Shown one piece after another: positions 17,201 to 60,230 of a stretch of 64,000 nt of DNA. Every line of letters starts with the position of its first letter. The first letter of the stretch is position 1. The stretch is from Chlorobiota bacterium (GTDB taxonomy: Bacteria; Bacteroidota; Ignavibacteria; OLB7): positions 1-64,000 of the forward strand of contig JAEUSP010000114.1 in the NCBI GenBank assembly GCA_016788565.1. Direction: 5' to 3'. The notes under the pieces were generated by a model, which was not told the DNA's origin, did no database searches, and saw only the letters and a program-made list of their open reading frames with translations. The position numbers and the translations under genes were made by a program.

Positions 17201-19947
17201 CATTGTTCGTTGTGGCAATGCAGCAAGTCCCCAACCCCAGCCGTGCCGAGTTCCGGATGGAGCCGGACTGGGTGATGTCGGCGGCGGCTGGCGGAGTGGC
17301 GGGGCGTGCGGCCATTGCGCCGTTGCCCGACACGGTGGATGTTGGCTGCATCCCGTTTGATAGCTGCCGAACGTACAGCATTCCAATTCGGAACATTGCT
17401 GAGTACAGCGACCTTCTGATCGGCAACATCCAGATTGCTGGCGACACAGTTTTCACTCTTGAGGGGAACGATGGAGTGATCCTTGCTGGCGCGACCGGAA
17501 GCATTCGGGTTCGCTTCTGCCCCGATAGCACCAAGACGTTTTACGCCACGCTGACGGTTGCCACCAACACCGTGCCGGATACTCTCCGAACTATCGTCCT
17601 TCGGGGGTGCGGGCTGTCGGGAATCCTTACCTCCACCGAACCGACCATGCAGCTTGGCGAGCTTTGCCCCGGCACCTGCGTGGATACGGCCATCACGTTC
17701 CGCAACGTTGGGAACGCCCCACTGCAGATGAAGCAAATTTTGGGGGATAGCATCCGCATGACCGTGGCGGTTCTTTCCAACATCAGCTTCCCGTACTGGC
17801 TGAATCCGGGGGATTCCGTTCGCGTTCGGCTGCGGCTTTGCGTGCTGAAGATTGACCAAAACGGATCGCGCATCTACGCGCTGAACAATGCCATCGAGCC
17901 GATCTACTCCGAACTGGTGGTGTATGCCATCAATGCCGGCCCGGTTCCCGGCATCACCGATGTTGTTGATTTCGGAAACGTCACGCTTCCGGCAACCGAT
18001 TCCTGCATCACCCGCTCGTTCACCGTCACCAATCAAAGCGGGCGGTTTCCGTTGCGGATGATGGTTGGCCAGGTGAAGCTCCCCAATTTCACGCTTCTTT
18101 CCCCTGCCGTGCGCGATACCGTGATCCCGCCAAACGGAAGCATTGAGCTGGTCGGGAAATTTTGTGCCGACAGAACCGGGATTTTCCGCGACACACTTGC
18201 CCTTTCGTTCAGCTCGGAAGGATGCCGGCTTGACACCCTTGTGGCATGGGTTGGCACGGCTTCCTACGTTCGCCCGTTGCCCATTATTTCCCGCCCGATT
18301 CTTGGCGATACGCTTCGGTTTCCGGCCGCGGTTGTTGGCGTGGATGGCTTTGCTGATTCCGTGGTTATCCTGAACACCGGAAACGCCGTTGCGCGGATTC
18401 GCCAGCCAGCATTGATCCGCGAGGTTGGGACGGGGGTGCTGGAGTTGGAAATGGACAACGCGGCCCAGCCAACGTTCCCCTTCAACTTGCTGCCGAATCA
18501 ATCGGTGGCGATCAACCTGAAGTTCCGGCCAGCAACCCCGGGAAAAAAACAAGCCCTTCTGCTGCTGCAAGATTTCGATGGCTGGGCCGATACGGTGGTG
18601 ATTGTCGGGCAAGGGGTTGCCTCCAATATCCGGCTGAACCCCACGCTGCTCGATTTTGGCGACGTGCGCGTTGGCTCAGTCTCTGATAAAAAATTGGCCG
18701 AGGTTGCCAACACGGGGGATGCTCCCGAATCGGTGTGGCGGGTAAGCCGTTCCGGCGACACGAACGGGATTGCACGGGTTTCCATTTCCCCACTTCCCCC
18801 GCTTGATCTGCTGCCAGCACAAGCGAACACGCTGGCGTTGAACTATCAGTTTACTCCAACTGAGGAACGGCAGTATGAGGCGTTCGATACGGTGGTGTTT
18901 GCTGCGCGAACGCTGCTGCGGTTGCGCGGGCGCGGGGTGATGGAGCACGCCGCTGCCGACCAAGACACGATTGACTTCGGTTGCCAGTTTGCCGAAACAA
19001 CGGTGGATTCCACTGGCGCGATTCTGATCCGCAACACCGGAACTCACCCGCTAACGGTGGATAGCCTTCGGGTGGTGGAGGGAAGCCAGTGGTTCCAGAT
19101 GGTGGGGGAGACATCGGGGGTGATTCCGCCGCAGGGGACGGCTCAGTTTTCGGTTCGCTACATCCCGCACACCGGAGCGGCTTCCGGCAGAGTGAGGTTG
19201 TTCAGTTCGGCAGCCGAAGCGGTGGAGGTTCAGTTACGCGGCGACCTTTGTGCCGATACCCGGCGGCTTTCTATTTCCGTTGCCGAGACTTCGGGGGGGA
19301 TTGGTGAGAGGGCAATTATCAGCATTGGCATGGAGCTAACCGAGTCGTTGGGGTGGGACCTTCCCATCAGCATGACGCTTGCGTACAGCGATGACATCAT
19401 CACGCCGTTGTGGGATAGCGGGCCGATTCAGCAAGGGGCAATTCCCGGGGTGGTGGTCAGCAGTGGGGGCCAGGGGAAGATGAAAGTCAGCGGCCAAATC
19501 CCAGCGATGACCAGCACGGGGACGCTGCTGAAAATGCCGGTGCGGGTGCTGCTGGGTTCAACATGGTTCAGCCCGTTGCGGCTTACCGATGTGGCCGCAA
19601 AAGCTGCGGGCCTTGCCGTGCAAACCAAAAACTCACGGCTGGTGGTGCTGGATTGCGACACCACTGGCGGCATCATTTTTCAGGGGGAGTACGCGCTGGA
19701 TCAGAACGTCCCGAATCCGTTCAATCCAACCACCACCATCAGCTACCAGATTGCCCGCCAAGATCACGTTCGGCTAACGCTGTACGGCCCGATGGGAAGC
19801 CAGGTCGCAACGTTGATAGATGAAGTGCAGCCAAAGGGAATCCACCACTACCAGTTGAACTCCGCCATGCTTCCCAGCGGCGTTTATACCTACCAGTTGG
19901 AAAGCGGTCCCTTCCGAAAAACGCGGAGGATGGTGGTGATGGAGTAG
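14287..19947 (+). CDS. Giant T9SS-secreted surface protein (propeller, Gly-rich and ASPM/HYDIN-like domains)
   Basis: 1886 residues. The start chosen gives a long signal region (hydrophobic core about 14-35, cleavage near AVAQ 40); an ATG at residue 26 is an alternative. Order seen: residues 40-400, repeated strand units with TQVALDAWGNTHVVWAS and NGAVHAAFIANR patterns as in exo-sialidase-type propellers; about 617-890, extremely Gly-rich (GGGGGGSGGQ, GGNGGEGRIRIDG); about 1010-1620, several immunoglobulin-like ASPM/SPD-2/HYDIN-type repeats (for example LLDFGDVRVGS, DTIDFGCQF); about 1802-1886, a T9SS type A sorting domain beginning LDQNVPNPFNPTTTISYQI and ending GVYTYQLESG...RRMVVME. It is expected to be exported by Sec and displayed or released by T9SS. 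It follows the sigma/anti-sigma/OmpA genes by 156 bases. Confidence 0.88.
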   Translation: MRTLQEHTATQHPIVVLWHFCLLAAMIAAGIAMPTAAVAQVATWLHRSVPERGLASSNTQVALDAWGNTHVVWASNDPDRAGIQLFYSTDATGTFSQPVQFTDATNGTVFDSATVVTAPFQFRLDQNGAVHAAFIANRLNHLYLFYTTNRQPSTGTPGRFTVADSLAEVTRYGMAVDSAGVAHIVWIEEFPTRYDLRYHSSADPPTVNTLIASVPCACRVGDPSVSVSNDAIHVVFRADSGSLYYLRKPITGSFGAPVLVPTPQYNGRRFSNGTGDLRVASAVGPTGSVHILQPHYDAVAGHRLLYLDNASGSFRSFFLTAKTDTSARAFALAFDHQQHQLGAAWTQHQSATSSSVTLFQTLAETSPMMWGVLGAATNLNTASAGAQPLRRSTGSLFLRNGRAVVGSLAGSDNIRWRPAFYDRSSITPSISYLLPDAAAPGMNVVVETYAPYRQHGSFGQDGFHPNVAELQLVNAQDTSRVILGPTVVSWDGRLASTMLFVKAGAAVGAVPVRMRVGTQFSNADTFFVVKPQQLGGASGQLSGGGVLGSGGIFAGPRSRRGVLVVDSLVLLNGAFTVDTADTDPNAPGNQGFLPVTILARGGVSIAPTATLSVSAPNPTSGAPSGMAGPGGGGGGSGGQINGGSGYTSGGGASLYLGTGGSGQSIGSGGSRSGIWGGGPSLNGTPGGATYPNAMSGGGTGHPFGASAWYGRISRKEPIEKNSGGFGGGAGGSIPLSVGDLSWGGGGGAFGTPGGDGDNFGNDSSGGYVVGSSPLVPLAGGSGGGAAFAPPTNITNGGGGGGALQLVAYQSINLAGRVAANGADGVASQNLTGASGGGGGAGGGVLLASKKGIRVSGLAPMSARGGQGGTGAAGSGNNGGNGGEGRIRIDGQTVGNLSVTPTPAYRGPVIFGGGAFQAAPGEAVTGSGMPGATIHLFVRSEFSPWDFSQPLVATVGNDSLWSLTLGPAASTTPLFVVAMQQVPNPSRAEFRMEPDWVMSAAAGGVAGRAAIAPLPDTVDVGCIPFDSCRTYSIPIRNIAEYSDLLIGNIQIAGDTVFTLEGNDGVILAGATGSIRVRFCPDSTKTFYATLTVATNTVPDTLRTIVLRGCGLSGILTSTEPTMQLGELCPGTCVDTAITFRNVGNAPLQMKQILGDSIRMTVAVLSNISFPYWLNPGDSVRVRLRLCVLKIDQNGSRIYALNNAIEPIYSELVVYAINAGPVPGITDVVDFGNVTLPATDSCITRSFTVTNQSGRFPLRMMVGQVKLPNFTLLSPAVRDTVIPPNGSIELVGKFCADRTGIFRDTLALSFSSEGCRLDTLVAWVGTASYVRPLPIISRPILGDTLRFPAAVVGVDGFADSVVILNTGNAVARIRQPALIREVGTGVLELEMDNAAQPTFPFNLLPNQSVAINLKFRPATPGKKQALLLLQDFDGWADTVVIVGQGVASNIRLNPTLLDFGDVRVGSVSDKKLAEVANTGDAPESVWRVSRSGDTNGIARVSISPLPPLDLLPAQANTLALNYQFTPTEERQYEAFDTVVFAARTLLRLRGRGVMEHAAADQDTIDFGCQFAETTVDSTGAILIRNTGTHPLTVDSLRVVEGSQWFQMVGETSGVIPPQGTAQFSVRYIPHTGAASGRVRLFSSAAEAVEVQLRGDLCADTRRLSISVAETSGGIGERAIISIGMELTESLGWDLPISMTLAYSDDIITPLWDSGPIQQGAIPGVVVSSGGQGKMKVSGQIPAMTSTGTLLKMPVRVLLGSTWFSPLRLTDVAAKAAGLAVQTKNSRLVVLDCDTTGGIIFQGEYALDQNVPNPFNPTTTISYQIARQDHVRLTLYGPMGSQVATLIDEVQPKGIHHYQLNSAMLPSGVYTYQLESGPFRKTRRMVVME

Positions 19948-53772: not shown

Positions 53773-54000
53773 CCCTCCGCTCATGTTGAGCCATCGGAAT
53801 GCCGAATGCCAAATGTCGAATGCCAAATCAAGAATGAAGAGTCTTGGAGTCCTCACCGAATCCAGCCCTCCGCTCATGCTGAGCCCCGTCGAAGTATGAG
53901 CGGAGCCACCGAACGGCGAAGTCTCCACCGATACTCAGCGGTTAATTTTTCGGCAAGCTCACTCTTCGGCAATCATAGTATGGCTGGTTCACCACAGCAT
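53773..54000 (+). repeat. Tandem duplication, copy 1 (228 bases)
   Basis: Begins CCCTCCGCTCATGTTGAGCC, contains an AATGCC(G/A) array at 53798-53832, the hairpin repeat at 53870-53903 and the tail ACTCAGCGGTTAATTTTTCGG to CACAGCAT. The next base starts copy 2. Confidence 0.93.
53870..53903 (+). repeat. REP-like hairpin repeat, copy 7
   Basis: CCGCTCAT (53870-53877) and ATGAGCGG (53896-53903), perfect stem, loop GCTGAGCCCCGTCGAAGT. GCCACCGAAC follows. Confidence 0.9.
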
Positions 54001-54235
54001 CCCTCCGCTCATGTTGAGCCATCGGAATGCCGAATGCCGAATGCCAAATGTCGAATGCCAAATCAAGAATGAAGAATAATGGAGTCCCCTCCTAATCCAG
54101 CCCTCCGCTCATGCTGAGCCCCGTCGAAGTATGAGCGGAGCCACCGAACGGTGAAATCTCCACCGATACTCAGCGGTTAATTTTTCGGCAAGCTCACTCT
54201 TCGGCAATCATAGTATGGCTGGTTCACCACAGCAT
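54001..54235 (+). repeat. Tandem duplication, copy 2 (235 bases)
   Basis: Same organisation as copy 1 and nearly identical. It is exactly seven bases longer because its heptamer array (54026-54067) has one more AATGCCG. A few substitutions cluster around 54075-54095. Confidence 0.93.
54105..54138 (+). repeat. REP-like hairpin repeat, copy 8
   Basis: CCGCTCAT (54105-54112) and ATGAGCGG (54131-54138), perfect stem, in copy 2 of the tandem duplication. Confidence 0.9.
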
Positions 54236-54281
54236 CCATCGCGGTTTTTCTGGGGGCGGTTGTTCAACAAACACGTCATCA

Positions 54282-54772
54282 CCATCCACACTCGCCGGGG
54301 ATACGCTCCCAGAGTTAGCGACAACTCTCCTGACTACGGTCGCCAACAACGTACGCGACCACTTGCCGAGTGTCACGACATTGGGCGATCCAGACCCACT
54401 GCTTATTCTCGCTTTTTTGCACAAATGACCATAATTCATCCAACTCCAGCGTTGGTGATGCTGGGGCCGGAGCCAGCGTTTCGGTTAAGGGTGGGAGTTC
54501 GTTGGCTTTTTTTTTATCCACGTGCTGACCCTGTTTCGTGCCGCACCGAACGTGCGAGTGAGTCCTCGCAGGCTGGAGCGTTCCTGATAGGCATGGAGGA
54601 TTGCTTGGCGTTGTTCCGGGGTGTAGCCATTCGTTTGAGGGTTCTTTCGGCTGTTGCGGTGGCAATCGTTGCAGTGGTAGCGTTGCTTCCCGTTGTTGGT
54701 CAGCCCATTACGGGTAATCCGCATACTCTGGCAATGCCGACATCGAAGGGTCGTTGTTACCATGATGACCAA
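54282..54772 (-). pseudogene. IS1-family transposase remnant (InsA + InsB frames, truncated)
   Basis: The first frame (54485-54772) matches InsA: CRHCQS...CNDCHRNS zinc finger, then GYTPEQRQAILHAYQERSS and a helix-turn-helix ending RVSTWIKKK. The second frame resumes with the DDE-domain sequence LELDELWSFVQKSENKQWVW and VVGDRSQESCR. The change of frame is -1 and occurs at a run of nine A on the reverse strand (54506-54514), as expected for IS1-type programmed frameshifting. After SCR an in-frame TAA (54315-54317) interrupts, followed by LWERIPGECG, still IS1-like, then homology ends. So the element is dead: nonsense mutation plus loss of the 3' part. Confidence 0.85.
54506..54514 (-). other. 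A9 slippery run of the IS1-type frameshift
   Basis: Nine A residues on the coding strand: codons ATA AAA AAA AAG in the InsA frame become GAT AAA AAA AAA in the InsB frame after a -1 shift. The A-run location, at the end of the InsA helix-turn-helix, fits the fused InsAB' product. Confidence 0.75.
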
Positions 54773-54883
54773 ATTACAAATCCTCCCTGGGTATGACCCA
54801 CTACCCGATAGCCTTCTTTTTCAGCATCTCAACTGGTGTGTTCGGGCTAAAATACAAGCCTCTGCCAGTATGCTCAAATAAAA

Positions 54884-54956
54884 GGAGAATGCGAAAATCC
54901 TTCATCTGCCATGCCCGTGAAAGCAGGCATTTATTTTATCGAACTTCGCAAACTCC
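54884..54956. repeat. Palindromic element A
   Basis: Left end GGAGAATGCGAA and right end TTCGCAAACTCC are inverted with two mismatches. Inside, ATGCCCGTGAAAGCAGGCAT forms an imperfect hairpin. 73 bases long. Confidence 0.8.
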
Positions 54957-55008
54957 AATATTCTGAGTATATATCAGGGTAAAATTCACCGCTTGCAAGT
55001 GTTATCCA

Positions 55009-55128
55009 GTTATACTCCAAACAGAATGGTTTGCGAAAAATCTAGTCGTTGTCATTCCCGCGAAAGCGGGAATCCATACCATAACTAGCTGAGTAGAATT
55101 TCGCAAACCAATTTCATCCGAGTATAAC
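55009..55128. repeat. Palindromic element B with dRS3-like core
   Basis: GTTATACTC (55009-55017) is inverted at 55120-55128; TGGTTTGCGAAA (55027-55038) is inverted at 55099-55110. The core ATTCCCGC-GAAA-GCGGGAAT (55054-55073) is a perfect 8-base stem with a GAAA loop. The core fits the ATTCCC-N8-GGGAAT pattern known as dRS3 in Neisseria, and similar sequences are found in other bacteria. Confidence 0.85.
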
Positions 55129-55200
55129 CGCATCTTTCTTGAAATCCCTAAAGTTCATATCCATCTATATTGCCTTATTATCTGTGGCACATTCGAATAA

Positions 55201-55297
55201 TAAGGAGTTTGCGAAATCCAACGGATTATAGATGCGCAGGTCTATTGGCTTTCATTTTCGTGGGGATGATCGCCAATAGATTTTCGCAAACTCCTTA
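55201..55297. repeat. Palindromic element C, perfect 16-base ends
   Basis: TAAGGAGTTTGCGAAA (55201-55216) is exactly inverted at 55282-55297. A second perfect inverted pair lies inside: TCTATTGGC (55241-55249) and GCCAATAGA (55272-55280). Could fold into a long hairpin; 97 bases, with TAA/TTA at the outer ends. Confidence 0.9.
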
Positions 55298-55365: not shown

Positions 55366-58300
55366 CTACACATCCAGATTCCTCACATACCGTGCGTTCC
55401 GTTCGATGAACTGGCGGCGTGGCTCCACCGAATCCCCCATCAACGTCTCGAAAATGTGCGAGGCGTGCTGGGCGTTTTCAATCGTCACCTGCTGCAAGGT
55501 GCGGGTTTCGGGGTTCATGGTGGTGGCCCACAACTGCTCGGGATTCATCTCCCCCAATCCCTTAAATCGGCTGATGACAATGCCATCGCGGGTGCGGCCA
55601 ATTTCTTCGTATTCTGGTTCCTCGGTTCCTTCCTCAACGTGGGTAGAAGCGTTGGTGTCCTTCCGAAGTCGCTTCAAAATTTCATCACGTTCGGCATCAT
55701 CGTAGGCGTAGTATTCACCTTTCCCTTTTTTCACCTTGTAGAGCGGCGGCATGGCCAGATAGATTTTCCCCTGCTCAATCATCTCCCGCATGTAATTGAA
55801 GAATAACGTCAGCAGAAGGGTGCGGATGTGTGCGCCGTCCACGTCGGCATCGGCCATCAGAATTACTTTCCCGTAGCGTGCTTTGCTAATATCCAGCGTC
55901 TCGCCAAAACCAACCCCAAGCGCGGTGAAAATCGCACGAATTTCTTCGTTCTCCAGCACCTTGTTAATTCGCGCTTTTTGCACATTCAGCACCTTGCCGC
56001 GCAACGGAAGAATTGCTTGCGTGCGGCGGTCGCGTGCGGACTTAGCGCTGTTGTGCACAAACACACCGTCGGCCAGAGCAAAATTATGAGTGCCGGGAAC
56101 TTCAAGATCATAAACGTCCATTTGCTCAGTCAATCGTTCAATTTCAACTACGCGATGGTTGTAATTATGAACCGCTTCAATTGCTGTTGTGGCATTATTA
56201 TCGAAATAACGCTGGCAGAAGGTTTCAAAGCTCAACAAGGATTTGTCGCGAGAGTTGATGCGATGCTCACGATAAGCAGAAATATCTACTATGCCGTGCG
56301 TAACCTCAATCTGCTTTAATGCAGAAAGGGTTTTGTTGTAGTAGGTACGATTTAGCGCTGCATGGCGTTTTTCACGAAACTCAGGAGTCCATTGTTCTGC
56401 GGTTTTCTTCCGCCGCCAATTTTTTAACTCAGGATTCTCCCATTGCTTTTTTGCAGCTTCCGAACGTTCAATAGCTGCTTCGGGATGATGTTGATAAAAT
56501 GCCCGAGTACGCGCTGCCTGAAGTTTCCTATTCTCCTCATTGCTCCAATATCCTTGCTGAGCTTCCATCAGTTGCTCTTGGTTGATGCGGCGATACTCAG
56601 CGTTTGAGTTGTAATATGCTCGCCAGCGATCAGTCATAAATTGCTTGTACTCTGTATTTGCCCATTGCGCTTTTGCTTGTTTGGATAACATCTCTCGCGT
56701 GGCTGGTTCCTTCATTCGCGCACTCATTTTGCTACGGTATTCAGGAGTTGCCCGGGTTGCACGCCATTTTTCTATTGCGTCACTATGATGAAGAGTAAGT
56801 GCAGCGTGGCGGCGATGCAATGCAAGGTGTTCATCCGCTTTCATACGGACGATGTTTGTTGGGTTGTTATTCCGCTTATTAAAATCTTTGTGATGACAAT
56901 GTTCACCGTCATCGTTTTTATAGTTTTTCTTCCAAATGTTATACCAATCAGCCAGTTTATGCGTGAACAGCCAAGAATCTGATTTGGGATTCCAAACCAT
57001 TTCATATCCATTAATGGTGATTCCTGGTTGTGTCATATCGGAGAATTTTCGATATAACGGCATTAGCGAGTCGTCGGGGGTGATATCAGCTGCGGCCTTG
57101 TAGCTACCATCACGCAGCATAAATCGGTGATCTGGAGTGCAAACGATTTGTTTGCCATTATCCAACGTGATCCGAATTACGTCAGCGTTGGATTTTGTGA
57201 GCCTCACGTTGATAATGCGCTCAATCCCCACCGTTCCGTCATGGCGAATGGTGTAGCAAAAATTCTCTTTCCCAAGATTCTGTTCGTGGATCAACTCCAA
57301 GAAATTAAGGTGGCGACCATCTGCAAGGGCAACTTGCGTATCACCGGAAAAACACCCACCGGCACTATCCCCCTCCACCAAAAAAATCTCACAATGTTCG
57401 GGGTCTTCAATGGAGCAATCGGCAAGTTTTCCGGGGAGCGTCATTGTCTCCATTGCATTTTTTCGCCGCACAAGCTCGCGTGATTTTCGGGCAGCTTCGC
57501 GCGCTTCGGCTGCGGAAAATACTTTGTCAATAATTGCCTTCCCAACTTTTGGATTCTCCTCCAAATACTGAGTAAGCACATCGCCAAAAATGGAGCGGAC
57601 AATGCCGTCAACTTCGCTGTTGCCAAGTTTGGTTTTGGTTTGCCCCTCAAATTGTGGCTCGGCTACTTTCACGGAAATTACCGCAGTAAGCCCCTCGCGG
57701 AAATCTTCACCAGTCAAAGTCAGCTTCTCATTTTTCAGAAGCTTATTTTTTTGCGCGTATGCGTTCAGCGTGCGGGTTAAAGCCGAGCGAAAACCGCTAA
57801 CGTGCGTTCCCCCTTCGTGGGTGTTGATGTCGTTCACGTAGCTGAAAACATTTTCGCTGTAGCCGCTGTTGTATTGGAAGCAAATTTCAACGGGGGTGTT
57901 TTCTTTTTCGCCGGCAATCATCACTGGCTTAATCATGGCTGTGCGGGTTCCGTCAATATATTTCACGAAACCAACCAAGCCATCTTTGTAATGGAAAACC
58001 TCACTGATCCCATATTCCCGCTCGTCGGTCATGGTGATGGTGACGGTGGGGTTCAGGAATGCAAGCTCGCGCATACGCTCGGCAAGCGTATCCCAGCGGT
58101 ATTCGGTGCTTTTGAAAATGCTGGAATCGGGGCGGAACCATTGGGTGGTTCCGGTTTCTTTTTTGGATGATGTTCCAATTTCAATAACATCCCCCTGCGG
58201 AATTCCCTGGCGATATTCTTGCCGATACATTTTTCCGTCGCGCTTAATTGTGGAGATCATGTGTTCCGACAAAGCGTTCACCACCGAAACGCCCACGCCG

Positions 58301-58674
58301 TGCAGCCCGCCCGAGACTTTGTAGGCATCTTTATCGAATTTCCCGCCAGCGTGAAGGATCGTCATCACCACTTGCAGCGTGGAGATTTTTTGGGTTGGGT
58401 GCATTCCCACCGGAATACCCGAGCCGTTATCGGTAACGGTGATGGAGTTATCCTTGTGGATGGTGACGGTTATGGTGTCGCAGCGTCCGGCAAGGGCTTC
58501 GTCAATGGAGTTATCAACAACCTCATACACAAGGTGATGAAGCCCACGAACACCAATATCGCCGATATACATTGCTGGGCGTTTCCGCACCGCCTCAAGG
58601 CCTTCCAGCACCTTGATGCTATCCTCGCTGTACCCATTCCCGTTGGTCGTTTTCGTAACGTCGTGATCTGCCAT
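55366..58674 (-). CDS. gyrB: DNA gyrase subunit B with intein
   Basis: 1102 residues before splicing, 667 without the intein. N-terminal ATPase: GLEAVRKRPAMYIGD, the EVVDNSIDEALAG Bergerat motif, TDNGSGIPVG and GGLHGVGVSVVNALS. TOPRIM: EGDSAGG then (after the intein) SAKSARDRRTQAILPLRGKVLN, MADADVDGAHIRTLLLTLFF with the metal-binding DADVD, and the C-terminal SRFKGLGEMNPEQLW. The intein (residues 441-875) lies in the catalytic EGDSAGG-SAK motif, so splicing is needed for function. GyrB makes negative supercoils with GyrA (not in window). Gene order is dnaN, recF, DUF721, gyrB on the reverse strand. Confidence 0.97.
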   Translation of the reverse strand: MADHDVTKTTNGNGYSEDSIKVLEGLEAVRKRPAMYIGDIGVRGLHHLVYEVVDNSIDEALAGRCDTITVTIHKDNSITVTDNGSGIPVGMHPTQKISTLQVVMTILHAGGKFDKDAYKVSGGLHGVGVSVVNALSEHMISTIKRDGKMYRQEYRQGIPQGDVIEIGTSSKKETGTTQWFRPDSSIFKSTEYRWDTLAERMRELAFLNPTVTITMTDEREYGISEVFHYKDGLVGFVKYIDGTRTAMIKPVMIAGEKENTPVEICFQYNSGYSENVFSYVNDINTHEGGTHVSGFRSALTRTLNAYAQKNKLLKNEKLTLTGEDFREGLTAVISVKVAEPQFEGQTKTKLGNSEVDGIVRSIFGDVLTQYLEENPKVGKAIIDKVFSAAEAREAARKSRELVRRKNAMETMTLPGKLADCSIEDPEHCEIFLVEGDSAGGCFSGDTQVALADGRHLNFLELIHEQNLGKENFCYTIRHDGTVGIERIINVRLTKSNADVIRITLDNGKQIVCTPDHRFMLRDGSYKAAADITPDDSLMPLYRKFSDMTQPGITINGYEMVWNPKSDSWLFTHKLADWYNIWKKNYKNDDGEHCHHKDFNKRNNNPTNIVRMKADEHLALHRRHAALTLHHSDAIEKWRATRATPEYRSKMSARMKEPATREMLSKQAKAQWANTEYKQFMTDRWRAYYNSNAEYRRINQEQLMEAQQGYWSNEENRKLQAARTRAFYQHHPEAAIERSEAAKKQWENPELKNWRRKKTAEQWTPEFREKRHAALNRTYYNKTLSALKQIEVTHGIVDISAYREHRINSRDKSLLSFETFCQRYFDNNATTAIEAVHNYNHRVVEIERLTEQMDVYDLEVPGTHNFALADGVFVHNSAKSARDRRTQAILPLRGKVLNVQKARINKVLENEEIRAIFTALGVGFGETLDISKARYGKVILMADADVDGAHIRTLLLTLFFNYMREMIEQGKIYLAMPPLYKVKKGKGEYYAYDDAERDEILKRLRKDTNASTHVEEGTEEPEYEEIGRTRDGIVISRFKGLGEMNPEQLWATTMNPETRTLQQVTIENAQHASHIFETLMGDSVEPRRQFIERNARYVRNLDV
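56050..57354 (-). mobile_element. GyrB intein with HNH homing endonuclease, 435 residues
   Basis: Starts at Cys441 (CFSGDTQVALADGRHL, block A), ends VFVHN with the terminal Asn, and is followed by Ser, all needed for standard splicing. Block B lies in the IVCTPDHRFMLRDGSY region (TxxH-like). Between about 150 and 185 is an HNH nuclease motif: HCHHKDFNKRNNNPTNI. From ~195 to ~330 come four or five repeats with W(x)NPEYR or WANTEYK patterns, which resemble the DNA-binding repeats of HNH homing endonucleases. The position and block sequences match the intein known from the cyanobacterial (Synechocystis) GyrB. The intein region is more AT-rich than the exteins. Confidence 0.95.
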
Positions 58675-59039: not shown

Positions 59040-60230
59040 TTACAGGCCTATTTCCACTTCATCGCCAACATCACTCGATGATGATGCCGCTATTTTTTGC
59101 TCCATAATTTCCCCTTTCATCACCTCAATATTCGCCTCCGACTCTCCTAAATTTCTTCCACGGAGGAAGGGGAGAAGGTCGAAGGAAACGACGGTGAGAA
59201 ATACTTGTGCAAGGTTGCGGGTAAGGTCATACACCCGCTCGGCACGGTGGGCATCAAGTTCCCCAAAAATGTCATCCAACAAAATAATTGGCGTTTCGGC
59301 GCACTGGCGGGCAAGGTAGTGGAACTCGGCCACTTTCAGCCCAATTAACAATGTTTTGTGCTGCCCCTGGCTTGCCGATACCCGAACATCGCCGCCGTTA
59401 ATTTCCATCCGAACGTCGTCGCGGTGGGCACCGAACAGGGTTGCGCCGCGCCGCTGTTCTTCGGCAAGCACTTGCTTGCTTCGCAGCCACAAAGCGTCGC
59501 GATAATCGGCAACGGATGCGCGTGGCTCGCGGACGCAATCGGGCTGGTAGCGGATGCTGACCTCATCGGCCCCGTCGGCAACGTCGCCTGCGGTTTGCCG
59601 CAGCAGCGGCTTGAACTCCTCGATAAACTGCGTCCGCTCCATCATGATGTGGGCGGCGCGTTCAATCAGCCCTTCATCGTAGGTTTCAATCAAGTTTCGG
59701 TCAACCGAGCGGCGTTGCTTCAGTGCGGTTGCCAGCACTGCGTTGCGCTGTTTCAGGATGCGGCGGTAATGGAGTAAATCCTCCAGATACCGCCGCTTTG
59801 CCTGCGAGATCACCATATCAATAAATCGCCGCCGCTCCCCCGGCCCGCCGCCGCTAATTGCCTTCATATCTGGGGAAAGCACCACCGTGGGAGCCGAGCC
59901 AATTACCTGCGTGGCATTCCCCGCTGGCGAGCCATCCAAGCGGATGGTTTTGCCAACGTTCGGGTCGTAGCGGACATCGAACCGGCGCGTAACGCCATAA
60001 TCGCTGACCCCCTCCACCGACGACTCGAAGAACTTCTCCCCCCGCCGAATCAAGCTGGCATCTTGGGTTCCAACAAAAGAACGGGTCAGGGTGCAGACCG
60101 AAATCGCCTCAAGGATCGAGGTCTTCCCCTGACCGTTCATGCCGGTGATGATGTTCACCCCATCGGCGGCCATCAGTTGGGTGGCCGTGTGGTTGCGGAT
60201 ATTTTGGAATGTGAGGCGACGGATACGCAT
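59040..60230 (-). CDS. recF: DNA replication and repair protein RecF
   Basis: 396 residues from the ATG giving MRIRRLTFQNIRNHTATQL; the frame is open 73 codons upstream but does not resemble RecF. RecF loads RecA at single-strand gaps with RecO and RecR. Walker A GMNGQGKTS (30-38) is seen, with VVLSPDMKAISGGPGERR (family signature FSPEDL..IKGGP..RR), the SASQGQHKTLLIGLKVAEF ABC-type signature, and Walker B PIILLDDIFGELDAHR. The C-terminal ~40 residues are acidic. It follows dnaN with a 23-base gap. Confidence 0.95.
   Translation of the reverse strand: MRIRRLTFQNIRNHTATQLMAADGVNIITGMNGQGKTSILEAISVCTLTRSFVGTQDASLIRRGEKFFESSVEGVSDYGVTRRFDVRYDPNVGKTIRLDGSPAGNATQVIGSAPTVVLSPDMKAISGGGPGERRRFIDMVISQAKRRYLEDLLHYRRILKQRNAVLATALKQRRSVDRNLIETYDEGLIERAAHIMMERTQFIEEFKPLLRQTAGDVADGADEVSIRYQPDCVREPRASVADYRDALWLRSKQVLAEEQRRGATLFGAHRDDVRMEINGGDVRVSASQGQHKTLLIGLKVAEFHYLARQCAETPIILLDDIFGELDAHRAERVYDLTRNLAQVFLTVVSFDLLPFLRGRNLGESEANIEVMKGEIMEQKIAASSSSDVGDEVEIGL

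Follow-up and report, generated by a model that had tools for sequence, protein, structure and literature searches.

Organization of the locus

The window, which is the whole stretch of 64,000 nucleotides analysed (contig JAEUSP010000114.1 of a Chlorobiota bacterium, genome G000 below), carries three adjacent palindromic elements, A, B and C, between the remnant of an IS1-family insertion sequence and gyrB. The features of this region are listed here by position in the window.

54315-54805, minus strand: IS1-family remnant (InsA plus the first part of the DDE domain), with the end GGTAGTGGGTCA at 54794-54805
54869-54971, plus strand: element A, a 103-bp MITE of subfamily A bounded by TATGCTC...GAGTATA, with TA at each end
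54869-54896, plus strand: left terminal inverted repeat of A
54911-54930, plus strand: decayed REP hairpin of A, ATGCCCGTGAAAGCAGGCAT, assigned by its match to the REP consensus relative to shuffles
54944-54971, minus strand: right terminal inverted repeat of A
55011-55126, plus strand: element B, MITE of 116 bp with TATACTC/GAGTATA ends and TA as its target site
55011-55038, plus strand: left terminal inverted repeat of B, TATACTCCAAACAGAATGGTTTGCGAAA
55051-55075, plus strand: REP core of B, GTCATTCCCGCGAAAGCGGGAATCC, of CGTC-1/dRS3 type (TGTC tag, stem of 8 bp, loop GAAA, CCA tail)
55099-55126, minus strand: right terminal inverted repeat of B
55201-55297, minus strand: element C, probable diverged relative with arms TAAGGAGTTTGCGAAA; the coordinates run from arm to arm, arms included
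55255-55269, minus strand: REP-like remnant of C, TCATCCCCACGAAAA, in reverse orientation (p 0.002 against shuffles)
55366-58674, minus strand: gyrB with an intein, 68 bp from its stop to the inner arm of C

The clustering of A, B and C would reflect an accumulation of insertions in the stretch beside gyrB. The IS1 remnant, to which the cluster had been linked in the preliminary description, is indeed its neighbour but not its parent. On contig C91 (~19462-19555) a B copy is split by an IS1-type mini-element of ~93 bp with ends GGTAGTGG...CCACTACC, which is flanked by an 8-bp duplication, not by TA; this duplication and the GGTAGTGGGTCA-type ends identify IS1 as a separate family. The window also holds a direct duplication of 209 bp with 96% identity (53797-54005 and 54032-54240), adjoining arrays of GAATGCC-type 7-mers. 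The intein of gyrB is recognized by a Pfam Intein_splicing match, and the 667-aa gyrB of a sister genome of the same genus (G001, record JADZEY01) has none.

Ends and boundaries of the elements

The ends described as common to the three elements are real. With at most one mismatch allowed, the window contains the motif GAGTTTGCGAAA 3 times against an expectation of 0.52, and 0/100 shuffles attain 3 occurrences; its exact form has just 4 occurrences genome-wide. The boundaries proposed initially hold for the arms of C, which are perfect over 16 bases (55201-55216 and 55282-55297) as first described, and had to be moved from 54884-54956 to 54869-54971 for A and from 55009-55128 to 55011-55126 for B. 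The new bounds of A were adopted because the outer ends, which lie 15 bases past the former limits on both sides, are common to its copies when these are compared. Folded as DNA, B (z -7.2) and C (z -7.3) are far better than their shuffles, and A is weaker (z -2.2, for the span 54873-54971 that is slightly short of the element).

Copy number of the B and A subfamilies

The genome-wide search for further copies that had been proposed at the outset was productive. The pair TTTGCGAAA...TTTCGCAAA spaced by 40-70 is found at 82 places of the genome, which are intact B-type places, and at 0 in the reversed control. BLAST of the region against its own genome gives ~40 long matches, most of them with the start and end points of B, and the flanks of the copies read have the shared limits TATACTC...GAGTATA with unrelated DNA outside. 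Exact left ends of B type number at least 93 in a hand count among the matches listed; the 87+87 end matches obtained at ≤3 mismatches do not serve as an estimate of copies here, since this tolerance also admits some right ends. The abundance of the family in this genome is about a hundred copies. The distinct copies read (87 loci from the motif, end and BLAST searches and from further stretches read) have TA at both ends in 85/87 cases, the ends having been part of the copy-finding criteria. Their length is 116 bp in 57/87 and 103-228 bp in the rest, interrupted copies included, and their terminal inverted repeats are of 28 bp. B is a recent copy and contains no ORF of 60 aa.

Element A has three further copies in the genome, on contigs C91, C48 and C137, the one at C91:18683-18784 with 93% identity. 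Its right end TTCGCAAACTCCAATATTCTGAGTATA can be aligned with that of B. A is a second, more diverged subfamily. An element on contig C34 of G001, whose A-type ends enclose an intact REP hairpin close to the consensus (2 mismatches), bridges A and B.

Target site and transposition

On contig C128 one copy is nested in another. Removal of the inner copy (116 bp, leaving one TA) restores the host element without gaps at 113/116 consensus positions, which demonstrates an exact TA target duplication; the flanking duplication looked for on the basis of the preliminary description is proven at this one place only. The favoured setting of the target is G-T-TA-A-C, as judged from raw counts at 85 flanks without background or base-composition correction (position -2 is G in 35 and -1 is T in 47; +1 is A in 38 and +2 is C in 39). 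B combines the attributes of a MITE, being short and non-coding, with terminal inverted repeats and a target-site duplication, and the TA duplication seen at the nested copy is the one that characterizes MITEs of the IS630/Tc1-mariner type.

Identity and distribution of the REP core

The dRS3-like core assigned to B at first reading was confirmed: ATTCCCGCGAAAGCGGGAAT is present once in the element and is expected 0 times from shuffles. CGTC-1 REPs, to which dRS3 of Neisseria belongs, are described with TGTC as a frequent variant of their tag, a stem of 8 bp starting with AT, a 4-base loop and a CCA tail (PMC3733652, Di Nocera et al. 2013). The core GTCATTCCCGCGAAAGCGGGAATCC has all of these characters, from its C/TGTC tag to the CCA tail. 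CGTC-1 REPs are predominantly arranged as head-to-head dimers; in G000 each shell, as the DNA delimited by the terminal inverted repeats is called here, has a single unit.

The cores of the three elements had been regarded as unrelated, which is contradicted by comparison with the REP consensus. The hairpin is perfect in B, decayed in A, where 0/2000 shuffles match the consensus as well as the core does, and a remnant in C, whose reversed core matches it with p 0.002 against shuffles. C shares inner arms with A, and its positions 55256-55291, read in reverse orientation, align over 36 bases with the left half of B in other copies (78-81%, with E values of only 0.27-6). The similarity of its outer ends to those of A or B does not exceed that of shuffles (p 0.2 or more), and no further copy of C was found in the genome. 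From these sequence comparisons C is probably a decayed single-copy relative of the A/B family. The early proposal of MITEs or REP-type elements applies to A and B in both its terms at once, as they are REPs in a MITE shell, and extends to C as a probable member only.

With ≤2 mismatches the REP core is found 120 times in G000, and it is present in 16/61 genomes examined. Among the matches listed for G000 (65 of the 120, all exact), 62/65 hairpins lie in shells, 50 of them in places with paired TTTGCGAAA ends and 12 in shells with altered ends or arms; the remainder are one in a decayed shell and two in a tandem array. In this array, on contig C80, shell-less hairpins are positioned at 59201 and 59327 in a unit of ~126 bases. 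In relatives the hairpin is arranged as head-to-head pairs in 14/20 loci fetched; paired TTTGCGAAA ends were found in 0/20 of these loci and one near-match end in 2/20. One relative (G041, contig C21) has dense alternating REP hairpins with two stem variants, CCCGC and CCTGC. Another CGTC-tagged palindrome also occurs as payload of shells with ends of this kind in G000, on contigs C127 and C38 and, in changed form, on C120.

Invariance of the core and exchange between copies

Conservation along the element was assessed in 43 full-length copies collected by searches that ignore the core (paired ends, left ends, and stretches chosen from left ends). Variable sites amount to 0/25 in the core, 17/56 in the inverted repeats and 21/35 in the arms, the difference between core and inverted repeats having a Fisher p of 0.0009 for sites that are not independent. 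In a wider set of 57 copies, minority letters are 0/1425 in the core versus 120/3192 in the ends. In longer copies the core is enlarged, either by a small inserted hairpin of 21 bases that precedes GCGAAAG, or by 20 bases that follow GCGGGA, or by the two together, and these enlargements occur on more than one arm background. All four combinations of letters are present at 68/153 informative site pairs, so that copies have probably exchanged parts. Given this probable exchange, the invariant core could result from homogenisation by gene conversion among copies instead of selection on the hairpin. A more speculative proposal, which is conceivable but rather doubtful, is that CGTC REPs spread in this genus because the hairpin is a needed working core of the TA-specific shell, acting for example in the pairing of ends or in the marking of a strand; it would account for a core that is invariant amid drifting arms and for CGTC palindromes that are interchangeable.

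Candidate transposases

A transposase supplied in trans would act on the terminal inverted repeats (28 bp, TATACTC...TTTGCGAAA), inserting the shell at TA and duplicating this dinucleotide. The autonomous element with the same ends that the preliminary description had envisaged was not found in the part read of the draft genome; the absence of a parent is weak because the draft has 137 contigs and was only partly read, and a multi-copy parent element may be missing from the assembly. A looser scan for ends gave 162 matches, of which 4 have no right end within 260 bp. One of the four is completed by a longer stretch and another is the opposite end of a copy already known; the other two are a shell with another payload and a relic beside a fragment that resembles IS66 by eye. 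Following these four ends did not reveal a transposase gene belonging to any of them.

The TA ends suggest IS630/Tc1-mariner. G000 gives no match to the IS630 DDE_3 domain (PF13358) at a threshold of E 0.01, nor does G001 give one. A search of G000 and 20 relatives found this domain in 4/21 genomes with ten matches, and the six IS630 loci taken from these four relatives have no shell-type ends. An IS630 parent was rejected, as neither G000 nor G001, the two genomes with shells, gave a DDE_3 match.

The search for DDE_Tnp_1 (PF01609) in five genomes identified four matches in G000, two of which are complete IS5_4 elements with other ends and were discarded as parents. Mobilisation of the shells by an IS5-type insertion sequence of G000 (NCBIfam IS5_4) deserves consideration for the element at C119:145988-146872, whose ends GACTTCCTGCGAAAGT share TGCGAAA with the shell and have TA on both sides, and which has a relative with ends GACCTCTTGCGAAAGT on a cyanobacterial plasmid. 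The outer TACTC block of the shell has no counterpart there, the repeat length of 28 bp is not matched either, and G001 has shells yet no PF01609 match at E 0.001. Since TGCGAAA and TA are what it shares with the shell, this element is a candidate and no more, and its role as mobiliser is unlikely. Note that it has two overlapping frames. Searches of IMG/VR returned 0 exact left ends and 0 relatives of the IS5 transposase.

CGTC REPs "apparently lack a dedicated transposase" (PMC3733652). The genome encodes one Y1 (RAYT-like) transposase (C137:35586-35927), a finding which, with the CGTC-1 type of the core and the shell-less head-to-head pairs of the same hairpin in relatives, is what would be anticipated if A, B and C were REP or REPIN elements moved by this RAYT, the outer repeats being incidental. 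In such REPINs the same hairpin flanks the RAYT gene. The surroundings of this gene carry a different repeat, CCCAGGGCGTTGCCCTGGG, and no REP core hairpin was seen in the 3-kb stretch around it (C137:34500-37500). The nested insertion, moreover, comprises a whole 116-bp shell with its TA duplication, and shells contain 62/65 of the exact hairpins among the matches listed. Mobilisation by a RAYT is, on these grounds, very improbable. The CCCAGGGCGTTGCCCTGGG palindromes around the gene are likely a REP family of their own.

Relation to gyrB expression

All three elements fold strongly as RNA, as would be expected if they were kept as RNA or DNA structures such as 3' stabilisers, RNase III sites or terminators, with C terminating gyrB. 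In 56 copies, 25 lie between tandem genes, 15 between convergent and 7 between divergent ones, 4 inside an ORF, and 5 lack two neighbours; this bias of gene context is weak, is given without length control and relies on mechanical ORF calls. The possible use of C as gyrB terminator, considered in the preliminary description, was not upheld. C has no T-run, the one terminator-like match near gyrB (55330-55312, minus strand) is at chance level (0.7 expected), and no such element is present downstream of gyrB in G001, the one same-genus gyrB locus examined. Maintenance of the elements for their structure is quite improbable, and a role of A, B and C in gyrB expression is not shown. The only Rfam match, to FtrB, is below threshold (22.8 bits versus 66) and this identity was rejected.

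Interpretation

The best explanation, to which a probability of about 0.87 is given, is that A, B and C are one family of transposase-less MITEs that carry a REP hairpin and insert at TA. It is directly supported by the many copies, their defined ends, the nested TA duplication and the invariant core; we infer the acting transposase and the means by which the core is kept. As the core is a CGTC-1 (dRS3-type) REP, the REP in this genus travels as a passenger of a TA-specific MITE shell and may also be one of its working parts.

Comparison with known systems

Correia elements of Neisseria start with TATAG and duplicate TA, and in these bacteria dRS3 and Correia are separate repeats, whereas here the REP forms the core of the MITE. 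Correia/NEMIS and other TATA-ended bacterial MITEs are also small and non-coding with inverted ends and strong folding, but their end sequence differs from that of the shell described here (PMC10969869, PMC4853749). In Coxiella burnetii, a likeness is provided by QMITE2, the shorter copies of which are REP elements; it has direct repeats of 7-9 bp instead of TA, and its REP is traced to the GTAG class and not to CGTC (PMC5896051).

In the open-access library searched we encountered no TA-duplicating MITE with a single CGTC-1 REP as its invariant core. Comparable arrangements are those of Anabaena variabilis and Halothiobacillus neapolitanus. REP dimers occur in these bacteria inside long palindromes (GTAG-15 in TATAGGA...TCCTATA in the former, CGTC-1 in the latter), and empty palindromes are reported as not found (PMC3733652). 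As in the present family, a longer palindrome encloses the REP; the dimers differ in lying within unrelated palindromes that are described as targets, and mobility of the whole unit is not described in the available part of that source (PMC3733652).

CGTC-1 REPs, dRS3 included, have the same tag, AT-stem, loop and CCA tail as the core, and they are mostly naked head-to-head dimers with no transposase (PMC3733652), in contrast to the single unit in a mobile TA-flanked shell found here. The invariance of the core next to variable arms is surprising, since passengers of MITEs should drift. The genome provides material for comparison in its roughly one hundred copies, one cleanly nested insertion and several variants of the core. 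PMC3733652, in which CGTC-type REPs, dRS3 among them, were defined, leaves open the route by which they multiply; this genome offers a concrete one, as the spread of its CGTC REPs seems to take place within a TA-specific MITE.
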